Source of the DNA: Pseudolabrys sp.
Lineage (GTDB): Bacteria; Pseudomonadota; Alphaproteobacteria; Rhizobiales; Xanthobacteraceae
Reading direction: 5' to 3'
Assembly: GCA_029255525.1 (NCBI GenBank)
Contig: JANLJK010000310.1
Coordinates: 1-34,384 of the forward strand
DNA length: 34,384 bases
The stretch's first letter is position 1. Each line of letters opens with the position of its first letter. Below, in pieces: positions 25,259 to 29,996 of the stretch. The position numbers were made by a program, and so were the translations under genes. The notes under the pieces were generated by a model that ran no database searches, was not told the DNA's origin, and worked only from the letters and a program-made list of their open reading frames with translations.

Positions 25259-26104
25259 TTAGGGGACTTGCTCGGCCGTTGCACTCGTACCCGCGCCCGA
25301 ACCTTTGTCGGTCCATTCCGGCGGCGTGCCGACAACGCCGCTGACGAGGCCTACCAAGCCGGGCTCGCGGCCGAACGCCTCGCACGCCGGATATTTCGGC
25401 GCGCCGCCCGCCAAGGATTGAATGCGCTCGATCGACGGTGGCGACGGAAGAGTTCCGAACGGACTCTTGCCGGTGACCAGCATCTTGCTGAAATCGTCTC
25501 CGAACGCGCTTGCGAACTCGTAGGCGTCGCCCGATGACGAAATCCGTGCCGAACCGGAAAGCGCATTCGCCCCACGGCCCCATACCATCGCGGCATTCTG
25601 CCGCCCATCGTGGCCGAGCGCTTCCGCTTCCACGGAGAGTGTACCGAGCCCGATCGGAAGACGCGGCGTCGGAACGGGCACGCCTGGCAGCAAGACCGTT
25701 TTTGCGACGGATGCTGCTTTCGTTGCTGCGACTGCCTTCTCGTCGGTAGGGGTCATTTGCGTGACCAACGCACGGACGGTGAGGTCGGCGTCGTCTGTGG
25801 TCACCACCTTGAAGCGTTCACTGAGGCCGGCGCAGAGGGAGCGGTCGACCGCGTTTGCGATAAGCTTGCGCTGCTCGTCCGTAATCCCCTCCACCTGCGC
25901 CTTGGCCGCAAATGCCGTGGGCACGATCCTCACGGTGCGCGCCGCAAGCACTTCGTTCTTATTGACCGCGAGCTTCGATTTCGCGAACAGCCCATCGGAT
26001 GGCTTGAGGTCGTCATAGGACGTCAGGGAGCCGCCCCCATCCAGAGCGGCCGACGCGCAGCCGGACACCATGAATACCGTGGCGAAAATGGCGGTCATCC
26101 GCAT
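25259..26104 (-). CDS. DUF3313-like lipoprotein
   Basis: Lipobox [28 protein letters not shown]...VRIVPTAF..; DUF3313-like layout. Confidence 0.65.
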
Positions 26105-26378
26105 TGGCGGCCGCCGTGCCGGATATTGTCCTGGCCTGACTGTCGGATTCCGCAGCCCATACGCGCTTGGTCGGAGGTTATGCGAAGCCATTTGCGGCTG
26201 TACTCTGAGCGGGACTGGAAGATGCCGGCCGTATGCAGATGCACGGGAGATTTGGGCGGATATATGTTCCGGGCTGGTCGGTGGCGGCTGGATGCTCCGT
26301 CTTCGCCGGCATGAACGGGCATCCGCGGCTCCTCTACGGGTTGCTATTCGGCGCAATCGCCTCTACCTCCCTCCCCGC

Positions 26379-27722
26379 ATGCTTGATCTCGATAAGAATA
26401 CCGACCCCGCCGCCCCCAAGGTGAGCTTCGTGTCACTCGGCTGCCCGAAGGCGCTGGTCGACTCGGAGCGCATCATCACGCGCCTGCGCGCGGAAGGGTA
26501 CGAACTCACGCGCCAGCACCAGGGCTCGGACCTGGTCATCGTGAATACCTGCGGCTTCCTCGACAGTGCCAAGGCGGAATCGCTCGGCGCCATCGGCGCG
26601 GCGCTCAAGGAAAACGGCAAGGTCATCGTCACCGGCTGCATGGGCGCGGAACCCGAGAATATAACGGCCGCCTATCCGGGCGTATTCGCCATCACCGGTC
26701 CGCAGGCTTACGAGAGCGTGTTGGAGGCCGTGCACCGCGCCTCGCCACCGCAGCACGATCCGTTCATCGATCTGGTGCCGCCGGAAGGCATCAAGCTGAC
26801 GCCACGGCACTACGCCTATCTGAAGATTTCCGAGGGCTGCAACAACCGCTGCACCTTCTGCATCATCCCGAAGTTGCGCGGCGATCTCGTCTCGCGGCCG
26901 GCTGCCGACGTGCTGCGCGAGGCCGAGAAGCTGGTTGCCGCCGGCGTCAAGGAGCTGCTGGTCATATCGCAGGACACATCCGCTTACGGCGTCGACATCA
27001 AATACGCGGCGAGCAAATGGCGCGACCGCGAGGTGCGCGCCAAGTTCGTCGATCTGGCCGAGGGCCTGAGCGAACTCGGCGTCTGGGTGCGGATGCATTA
27101 CGTCTATCCCTATCCGCATGTCGACGACGTCATCCCGCTGATGGCCGACAAGAAGATCCTGCCCTATCTCGACATGCCGCTGCAGCATGCCGCACCCGAC
27201 GTGCTCAAGCGCATGAAGCGCCCCGCCTCGCAGGAGAAGACGCTGGAGCGCATCCAGCGCTGGCGCGAGATGTGCCCGGACCTGACGCTGCGCTCGACTT
27301 TCATCGTCGGGTTTCCCGGCGAGACCGAGGCTGACTTTGAAATGCTGCTGCAATGGCTCGACGAGGCCGCGCTCGATCGCGTCGGCTGTTTCAAATACGA
27401 GCCGGTCAAGGGCGCGACCGCCAATGAACTGGCCGAAGCCGTGCCCGAAGAGGTGAAAGAAGAGCGCTGGCACCGCTTCATGCAGGCACAGCAAAAGATT
27501 TCCGCGCGCCGTCTCAAGCGTAAAGTGGGAACGCGCCAGCAGGTGATCATCGACGAGGTCGGCCCGACCGTGTCGAAGGGCCGCTCGATGGCCGACGCGC
27601 CGGAGATCGATGGCACCGTCTATGTCGCCAGCCGTAGGCCGCTGCGTGTCGGCGAGATCGCCACGGTGAAGATCGAGCGCGCCGACGCCTACGATCTGCA
27701 CGGCTCCGTCGTCGGATTCTAG
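26379..27722 (+). CDS. rimO: Ribosomal protein S12 methylthiotransferase
   Basis: [56 protein letters not shown] (radical SAM CxxxCxxC), C-terminal TRAM. Confidence 0.95.
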
Positions 27723-28744
27723 CCGCCGTCGAGCGAAAATAGCCCGAGGCCCGATCGCACCTCGTCGAGCGTCGCCTGCGTGACGGCTTTCGCTTTTGCG
27801 GTGCCGGCGCGCAAAAGATCGAGCACATAGCCCGGATCGCGCGCGTAGGCCGCACGACGCTCGCGGATGGGCGCCAGCAATTCTTGCAGGATGGAGTCCA
27901 GTCGCCGTTTCACGGCTACGTCGCCGAGCCCGCCACGGCGGTATTGTGCTTTCAGCTCGGCAACAGCCGTCTCATCGGTGTCGAACGCATCGAGATAGGT
28001 GAAAACCACATTGCCTTCGACCGTTCCCGGATCGCTCGCGCGGACGTGGTTGGGGTCCGTGTACATACGGTGTACGGCTTGGCGTATGTCGTCGGGCGTC
28101 GCCGATAGCGGGATGGCGTTGCCCTGCGATTTGCTCATTTTCGCTTTGCCGTCGATGCCAGGCAGCCGCCCAATGCGCGGGATGACGGCCTCGGCCTCCA
28201 CGAGCAACGCGCGGCCGGTCTGGTTGTTGATGCGCCGCACGATCTCATTGGTCTGCTCGATCAGGGGCGCCTGATCCTCGCCGACGGGGACGATAGATGC
28301 TCTGAAGGCGGTAATATCAGCGGCCTGGGAAACCGGGTAACATAGGAATCCCGCTGGGATATCGCGGCCGAAGCCGCGCGCGCGAATCTCATCTTTGATC
28401 GTCGGGTTGCGCTCGAGGCGAGCGACGCTGACGAAATTGAGATAGAGCGTGGTCAGTTCGGCCAAAGCCGGCAAAGCTGATTGCACGCAGATCGTTGTCT
28501 TCGCCGGATCGATGCCGACGGCGAGGTAGTCCAGCGCCACGGCGAGAACGTTGCGGCGCACCTTCTCCGGGTCGTGCGCATTGTCGGTCAGTGCCTGCAG
28601 GTCGGCCAGCAACAGGAACTGACGATGCGTGTCCTGCAACGTCACCCGGCTTCTCAGTGATCCGACATAGTGCCCGATATGGAGTGGTCCGGTCGTCCGG
28701 TCCCCGGTGAGAATGATCGGCGCTTGAGATAGATCGATTGGCAT
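27719..28744 (-). CDS. trpS: Tryptophanyl-tRNA synthetase (streptococcal/lactococcal-type subfamily)
   Basis: [37 protein letters not shown] (HIGH), [43 protein letters not shown] (KMSKS); GGAG 8 nt before the ATG. Confidence 0.95.
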
Positions 28745-28792
28745 TCGGCGTCTCCAGTGCGGAGCCGCCGTGAGCGGAAGACCTGATCGCTT

Positions 28793-28825
28793 AAAAAAAA
28801 CGCCGCCTGCCGGTTCACGGCGGCA
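28793..28825 (-). terminator. Intrinsic terminator (attenuator, regions 3:4) in the trpS leader
   Basis: GGCGGC (28819-28824 on +) pairs with GCCGCC (28802-28807), 11-nt loop, plus a G-U closing pair, followed on the minus strand by an uninterrupted U8 (28800-28793). Confidence 0.85.
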
Positions 28826-28860
28826 GCGGGTCAAATTGAACAAATGACGACGTGCCGCTC

Positions 28861-28899
28861 CTAGAGGGAGCGCCACCAATAAGCCCGGGCGGGTTTCAT
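28861..28899 (-). CDS. trpS leader peptide with tandem Trp codons, MKPARAYWWRSL*
   Basis: Minus strand ATG AAA CCC GCC CGG GCT TAT TGG TGG CGC TCC CTC TAG; an in-frame upstream ATG at 28911 would give MVDVMKPARAYWWRSL*. Confidence 0.82.
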   Translation of the reverse strand: MKPARAYWWRSL

Positions 28900-28921
28900 C
28901 ACGTCGACCATGGGCGGTGAA

Positions 28922-28957
28922 TGCCACGCAATAGGGCCCCGCGCAAGCCACCGTCAA
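28922..28957 (-). promoter_or_regulatory. Candidate promoter of the trpS leader transcript
   Basis: Minus strand TTGACG (28957-28952), 17-nt spacer, CTATTG (28934-28929); predicted start near A28922. Confidence 0.6.
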
Positions 28958-29000: not shown

Positions 29001-29038
29001 AAAAAAGTGACGGCCGCGGCGGCCGAGCCGCGGCCGTC
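29001..29038 (-). terminator. Rho-independent terminator of the LTXXQ gene
   Basis: 12-bp perfect stem GACGGCCGCGGC (29009-29020)/GCCGCGGCCGTC (29027-29038), 6-nt loop, U6 on the minus strand (29006-29001). Confidence 0.85.
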
Positions 29039-29077
29039 CACTCCATTGCCCAATATGGGGGACGGACAGTGGAGCGA

Positions 29078-29770
29078 TCAGAACGGGCCGCGCGGTCCCG
29101 GCGGCGGTGGCGGCGGCATGAGCGCGGCGCGCTGATCGGCCGAGAGCGTGTCGTAGAGCGCGCGTGCCGGTCCGCTGACCGCCTGCAGGAATTCGGCGCG
29201 GGCGGCGGCCTGTTTTGCCGCGAACTCAAGGGCATCCGGCATCGACGGTGGCGCTCCGGCTGTCACGGGCAATTGCGCGCAGATCTGATGCAGCTTGGCG
29301 ACGGCGGGTTCCGCTGCCTCTTCAATCTTGCGCCAGACTTCCTTCTGCGCGCCCTGGAGCTGCAGCTTGCTCTTGATGTAGCCGGCCATCGCGGCGTGGC
29401 GGTTGATGCCTTCCTCGCAGGAGGCGCGGTCGAACGGCGGTGGTCCGGGCGGCATATGCATTGCCGGCAGGGGACCGGCCAAGGGCTCGCCCGCCATCGG
29501 GCCGTGCGGCGGGCGCGATCCTATAGCCTCGTCGCCTTGCGGCGGCATGCGGCCGGCGCCAAAGGGCGGCTGCGGCCGTGCGGCCTGGGCGAGTTGCACC
29601 AGAGTGCCGCCCGTGTCCCGGCCCGCGCCATACTGGAAGCCCGACGGCATCCGCGCCTGCTCCTTGGCTGGCATCGCCACGCCATGGTCGGAGGCCGCCC
29701 GCACGGCAACGCTGGTCCCAACCGCCACCAGGGCCGTCGCCAGCAGCAAGGCTTTGACCGAAAGCTTCAT
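29078..29770 (-). CDS. LTXXQ-motif (Spy/CpxP-like) periplasmic protein
   Basis: Signal peptide MKLSVKALLLATALVAVGTSVAVRA; Pro-rich middle; helical region with LQLQGAQKEVWRKIEEAAEP and LSADQRAAL. Confidence 0.75.
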   Translation of the reverse strand: MKLSVKALLLATALVAVGTSVAVRAASDHGVAMPAKEQARMPSGFQYGAGRDTGGTLVQLAQAARPQPPFGAGRMPPQGDEAIGSRPPHGPMAGEPLAGPLPAMHMPPGPPPFDRASCEEGINRHAAMAGYIKSKLQLQGAQKEVWRKIEEAAEPAVAKLHQICAQLPVTAGAPPSMPDALEFAAKQAAARAEFLQAVSGPARALYDTLSADQRAALMPPPPPPGPRGPF

Positions 29771-29996
29771 GTTCGTACTCCTTCTCGACGTCGCCTGCAG
29801 GCGCTGTTCTCCTTCGGCATAGTTGCGTTGGTGTGGTCGTGGCGTTGAAATTTGTTTCGGCGGCTTCTCGTTTTGTTTCTGGCTGGCGGTATCGGCCCGG
29901 ATTCCGCCTCGATCGGGTTCGCGTCCGGCGCGATTTGACAAAGATCATGGTCCGGTATGGCAATCCCGCCACGTTCGTGACACGCAGGACCATCCC

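Follow-up and report, generated by a model that had tools for sequence, protein, structure and literature searches.

The minus strand of the window, by which we mean the whole 34,384-nucleotide stretch of DNA analyzed here, carries what is very probably a genuine ribosome-mediated attenuator, with tandem Trp codons in a short leader ORF as its sensor and an auxiliary tryptophanyl-tRNA synthetase (TrpRS) gene as its target. The complete model that we favor, and regard as likely, is a stalling attenuator that senses charged tRNA-Trp, followed by a long-range helix (3:5) that would free the Shine-Dalgarno (SD) sequence and thereby induce the spare TrpRS. The anatomy of a terminator/antiterminator attenuator, given in the original prediction for this DNA, is present; that prediction missed both the covarying 3:5 helix and the hairpin that hides the SD sequence.

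The auxiliary trpS gene

27719..28744, minus strand: auxiliary tryptophanyl-tRNA synthetase gene (TrpRS II type, 341 aa), recognized from TIGR00233 and as the second TrpRS of the genome

The window TrpRS matches the TIGR00233 profile at 236 bits (cut-off 177), its translation contains both the HIGH and the KMSKS motif, and its nearest solved structure is TrpRS II of Deinococcus radiodurans. The genome encodes two TrpRS, the canonical one on contig 373 and that of the window on contig 310; the window gene is an auxiliary TrpRS and not the housekeeping enzyme. A Pseudoalteromonas luteoviolacea protein (L095), whose gene has no leader, is 62% identical to the window TrpRS and is flanked by aminotransferase, methyltransferase and LuxR genes (names read from the sequences, without database search), so that its locus looks like the indolmycin cluster with a resistance TrpRS described for that species (PMC5069768). 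Because of this relation, the window gene is best read as an auxiliary and probably inhibitor-tolerant TrpRS.

Open frames of trpS homologs span 337–350 aa. Extension of the window frame upstream to a TTG at 29053 was rejected, as the open frame there is attributable to chance and several homologs have stops shortly before the start. A strong intrinsic terminator at 29009–29038 (minus strand) probably closes the upstream gene (29078–29941), and trpS would therefore need its own promoter. At its other end trpS is convergent with a rimO-like gene on the plus strand (ORF 26070–27722), and the two genes overlap by 4 bases where their stop codons lie (27719–27722).

Leader ORF and promoter

28861..28911, minus strand: leader ORF MVDVMKPARAYWWRSL (16 aa), from the sequence and the WW leader in homologs
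28941..28946, minus strand: putative −35 box TTGCGC, with conserved spacing to the leader ATG
28918..28923, minus strand: putative −10 box CATTCA, in A/T-rich columns −12 to −10 conserved in 80 homologs

As had been predicted, TGG TGG lies at 28878–28873 and the stop codon TAG at 28863–28861 of the minus strand, giving the short leader ORF with Trp codons (its translation being predicted) that is expected of a ribosome-mediated attenuator. A WW leader ORF at the same distance would arise by chance about 4e-4 times per upstream region (5 of 12,600 dinucleotide shuffles). The start of the leader had been placed at 28899, for a product of 12 aa; homologous leaders are ∼14–19 aa, and because their promoter boxes keep a constant spacing to the ATG equivalent to 28911, that ATG is most likely the start, for 16 aa. 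The boxes themselves emerged when 80 homologous leaders were aligned by their ATG, with T at 0.52/0.75 and G at 0.45 in −35 columns −36 to −34, and they displace the promoter TTGACG-N17-CTATTG of the original prediction, which is not conserved. A simple sigma-70 scan found no strong promoter. The same alignment of 80 homologs has no SD-like column upstream of the leader ATG, and the leader mRNA is most likely leaderless, with transcription predicted to start at the A of the leader ATG.

Alternative pairings and a long-range helix

28867..28872, minus strand: region 1, CGCUCC, pairing with GGAGCG of region 2 (28861–28856)
28853..28861, minus strand: region 2, GGAGCGGCA, pairing with region 1 or, through GCGGCA (28858–28853), with TGCCGC (28825–28820)
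28801..28828, minus strand: 3:4 hairpin (terminator hairpin) of the minimum-energy fold
28815..28824, minus strand: region 3 strand GCCGCCGUGA of the 3:5 helix, 10 perfect base pairs with 28773–28764
28764..28773, minus strand: region 5, UCACGGCGGC, which can pair with region 3 and also forms the 5' arm of the hairpin over the SD sequence

The predicted 1:2 and 2:3 pairings are both present on the minus strand, as is the 3:4 hairpin (28828–28801) with its T8 (28800–28793). The minimum-energy structure of the 110-nt leader, at −45.1 kcal/mol (z = −2.3 against shuffles), contains both 1:2 and 3:4. The mutual exclusion of 1:2/3:4 and 2:3 that defines an attenuator is found in the window and in homologs, where 3:4 and 2:3 are comparable in strength. 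A chance ORF with hairpins in a G+C-rich spacer could be imagined, given that hairpins form easily in such sequence, that z is only −2.3 and that the trpS frame itself is open up to 29053, but conservation and covariation across classes refute it and leave it a negligible probability: the Trp-codon ORF and the pairings, whose retention in homologs the original prediction had made its touchstone, are both kept across three proteobacterial classes.

We measured covariation in 38 WWRS-type leaders (alignment A2). Helix 1:2 is 95.6% paired, with 10 compensatory cells versus 1.8 in shuffles, 2:3 is almost invariant, and 3:4 has 71% of its cells paired and no excess of covariation, so that of these three classical pairings 1:2 alone covaries. 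For the long-range 3:5 helix, pairing reaches 95.2% and compensatory cells number 31, versus 10.6 in shuffles, and the score is 0.328 versus 0.174. Strands 3 and 5 pair at −27.7 kcal/mol with their own partners versus −21.2 kcal/mol when permuted (0 of 20,000 permutations), and although the shuffle controls leave some relatedness, slid controls (30–65%) and partner swaps between species, which weaken 3:5 inside each group (z = −8.7, −3.3 and −8.7), lessen that worry without abolishing it. We know of no classical attenuator described with an extra long-range helix beside the ribosome-binding site of the gene.

Termination and access to the Shine-Dalgarno sequence

28793..28800, minus strand: U8 tract, from the sequence; absent in four congeners (L135–L138)
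28746..28770, minus strand: hairpin hiding the trpS Shine-Dalgarno sequence GGAG (28755–28752), from folding and from sequestration versus shuffles

In the window, the hairpin and U tract of an intrinsic terminator are both there; the hairpin has a one-base bulge, and the tract is eight U long. The terminator scanner did not detect 3:4, probably because of the bulge, and 3:4 with U8 is plausibly an intrinsic terminator in this genome. The expectation that homologs would keep both the WW leader and the U tract upstream of trpS held for the leader and mostly failed for the U tract in the WWRS-type group, where by inspection only ∼3 of 38 leaders (L004, L020 and L142) have one beside the hairpin; the four close congeners lack it while keeping the leader and 1:2. 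What the window's own group does conserve is the SD-hiding hairpin and the 3:5 helix. Most Beta- and Gammaproteobacteria have clear terminators, as do the WWLA-type Alphaproteobacteria. We read this pattern as ancestral dual control, with termination lost or gained locally.

A classical transcription attenuator, for which 1:2, 2:3 and 3:4 suffice and the pairing of region 5 is incidental, would account for the U8 of the window, for the clear terminators of those other groups, and for the T-rich tracts of Rhizobiaceae trpE(G) attenuators. We consider it unlikely, since the four congeners and most of the 38-sequence group retain leader and 1:2 without a U tract, and since the covariation of 3:5 exceeds that of 3:4.

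The SD sequence of trpS is sequestered by 6.4 kcal/mol versus 4.1 kcal/mol in shuffled upstream regions (p = 2e-8). A hairpin so much stronger than in shuffles, together with the missing U tract of most WWRS-type leaders, might suggest an erm-like translational attenuator, termination being irrelevant in most of the group and the U8 of the window accidental. This is quite improbable: U8 lies directly 3' of a strong hairpin in the window, related clades have terminators, and the common ancestor probably had both controls.

What 3:5 would do to the SD sequence was judged from locked folds in groups of 38 and 36 sequences. The median cost of opening it is 6.7 and 7.2 kcal/mol, respectively, with 3:4 locked, versus 3.7 and 2.7 kcal/mol with 3:5 locked, an effect that is in part built into the comparison, since the strands overlap. 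In group A strand 5 is immediately followed by the anti-SD CTCC, which can still form 3–4 bp with GGAG beside 3:5, so 3:5 might conversely be the OFF state, stacked on the CTCC/GGAG hairpin and disrupted upon stalling through 2:3; this is very improbable, as in 67 of the 74 species the SD sequence opens at lower cost with 3:5 and as 3:5 consumes the anti-SD itself in several gamma species (e.g. L068, GCCGGAG/CTCCGGC). No covariation of the anti-SD:SD pairing was found within the 38-sequence group.

The best reading, and a fairly probable one, is thus a second stage coupled to the first through 3:5. The median gap between the 3:4-locked and 3:5-locked states is only 2–3 kcal/mol, and because they lie so close the modeled leader RNA is bistable, and which state wins can depend on kinetics. 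In equilibrium folding with region 1 masked, SD accessibility barely shifts (33 species lower and 10 higher, with a median below 1 kcal/mol), and the model therefore requires cotranscriptional kinetics.

Distribution of the leader

We found a TrpRS of the window type in 19 of 398 genomes of the order; its gene has the tandem-Trp leader in 18 of them and a single-Trp leader in the remaining one (L010). Leaders of the order are 15–16 codons long, with their stop ∼105–120 bases upstream of trpS; the same arrangement is also found in Beta- and Gammaproteobacteria, so that the device spans the Alpha-, Beta- and Gammaproteobacteria. When genes were classed as auxiliary or sole by the TrpRS count of each genome, 52 of 63 auxiliary trpS had a tandem-Trp leader, compared to none of 26 sole-TrpRS genes (Fisher p = 4e-14, related lineages not being independent). 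Among the 11 auxiliary exceptions, five have a single-Trp leader in the usual position, and in two more such a leader lies farther upstream. On a tree of 151 proteins, all leader-bearing TrpRS fall into one mainly proteobacterial clade (SH-aLRT 95), leader presence requires 12 label changes versus 50 in shuffles, and nested lineages that have this enzyme as their only TrpRS (Acinetobacter and Cupriavidus) lack the leader. Judged from these sequences, the device belongs to auxiliary, horizontally spread TrpRS and not to housekeeping trpS. The proposal that low charged tRNA-Trp induces its own synthetase through a Trp-codon switch thus stands as to the switch, which is conserved across classes, and needs correcting as to the enzyme, which is auxiliary and not housekeeping.

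Auxiliary trpS copies on plasmids of E. coli, Klebsiella, Rhizobium, Agrobacterium and Variovorax (L185–L190) also have tandem-Trp leaders; the gene tables of these copies list no leader gene. At four loci with TrpRS of the window type (L041, L045, L062 and L150) no Trp leader was detectable; the first three are in two-TrpRS genomes, and the upstream regions of L041 and L150 are unusually A+T-rich. Loci of the trpE(G) family in the window's genus yielded no WW leader, so the device there is not a copy shared with a trp operon leader.

Related leaders at other genes

We also built a covariance model, R1, from 1:2 and 3:5 and searched 298 genomes of the order with it. R1 recovers the trpS element and, in addition, full-length copies (53–70 bits) before an isochorismatase gene in two families (f29 and f31), whose genomes sampled in the survey of the order yielded no auxiliary TrpRS. 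A trpE(G) leader (L212) is a weaker match. The isochorismatase is of the EntB/PhzD type (match to 2fq1, E 2.5e-38) and its gene stands alone; NCBIfam offers only generic names for isochorismatase-like proteins. At these loci (L202, L203, L204, L206 and L208–L211, at about 1501–1630) there is no U tract, and the leaders have 16 codons and end in FYWRFL, RYWRFL or GYWRFR; the device may here sense several aromatic amino acids. Whether R1 marks a portable family of two-stage switches, in which the terminator strand would be handed from 2:3 to the anti-SD segment in 3:5 and which would have spread with auxiliary TrpRS and, with a Phe-Tyr-Trp leader, before the isochorismatase gene, we rate as an even bet.

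Comparison with known systems

In Firmicutes, a T-box at trpS senses uncharged tRNA-Trp by direct tRNA binding and induces the synthetase; the window device would likewise induce a synthetase when tRNA-Trp is uncharged, and would do so without direct tRNA binding. Neither a T-box nor any other Rfam family reached its gathering score in the window leader (the best chance matches have E 0.2 or worse), and the Rfam trp_leader covariance model had no match there. In ermC-like translational attenuators, drug-dependent ribosome stalling in a leader ORF exposes a hidden SD sequence. The window device likewise would free a hidden SD sequence by stalling in a leader ORF, with Trp-codon stalling in place of the drug and a terminator in addition. 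Lopatovskaya et al. reportedly compared attenuation across aminoacyl-tRNA operons in 2010 and may already have predicted some of the proteobacterial trpS leaders. Ribosome-mediated attenuation of the indolmycin-resistant TrpRS gene of Streptomyces coelicolor is said to have been described by Vecchione and Sello, also in 2010.

An attenuator of trpS2 has been predicted for the auxiliary TrpRS of S. avermitilis (PMC1262725). Streptomyces trpS2 shares with the window a Trp-codon leader and terminator before an auxiliary TrpRS, and the same physiological logic, but belongs to another phylum, and the available part of that paper mentions neither a leaderless start nor a hairpin over the SD sequence nor a 3:5 helix. 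E. coli pheST, which the same paper cites for leader-peptide attenuation of an aminoacyl-tRNA synthetase, differs in its housekeeping PheRS, its Phe codons and its transcriptional control. Closer to the window in leader layout is trpL/trpE(G) of Sinorhizobium meliloti (rnTrpL and peTrpL), a leaderless mRNA starting at the AUG of a 14-aa leader with tandem Trp codons (PMC7298713), with the same 2:3/3:4 logic; it controls Trp biosynthesis instead, and its leader is typically WWWAR, compared to the WWRS of the window type. We found WW or WWW, leaderless-type promoter boxes near the ATG and a retained T-rich tract in 30 Rhizobiaceae trpE(G) leaders (L217–L246), whose 3:5-like complementarity is weaker (own −27.6 versus permuted −24.7 kcal/mol).

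Proposed mechanism and significance

Transcription would begin at the AUG of the leader itself. With plentiful Trp-tRNA, the ribosome would complete the 16-codon leader and depart, allowing 1:2 to form and then 3:4 once transcribed; in the window U8 would then terminate transcription; should RNA polymerase read through, region 5 would fold onto the trpS SD sequence and block translation. With scarce Trp-tRNA, whether the cell is starved of Trp or its main TrpRS is inhibited, the ribosome would stall at UGG-UGG and cover region 1, whereupon region 2 would hold region 3, prevent 3:4 and let RNA polymerase continue. Region 5, once transcribed, would capture region 3 as 3:5 and strip the anti-SD arm off the SD sequence, so that trpS would be both transcribed and translated. 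The physiological role would then be tolerance of TrpRS inhibitors.

We thus report a sensor of tRNA-Trp charging that is conserved and unannotated and that precedes the backup TrpRS genes of many Proteobacteria, among them plasmid copies of E. coli and Klebsiella. It offers a testable reason why spare synthetases would not be expressed before the main enzyme is inhibited. The presence of 3:5 suggests that one stalling event may control termination and then translation, a feature lacking in classical attenuator models.
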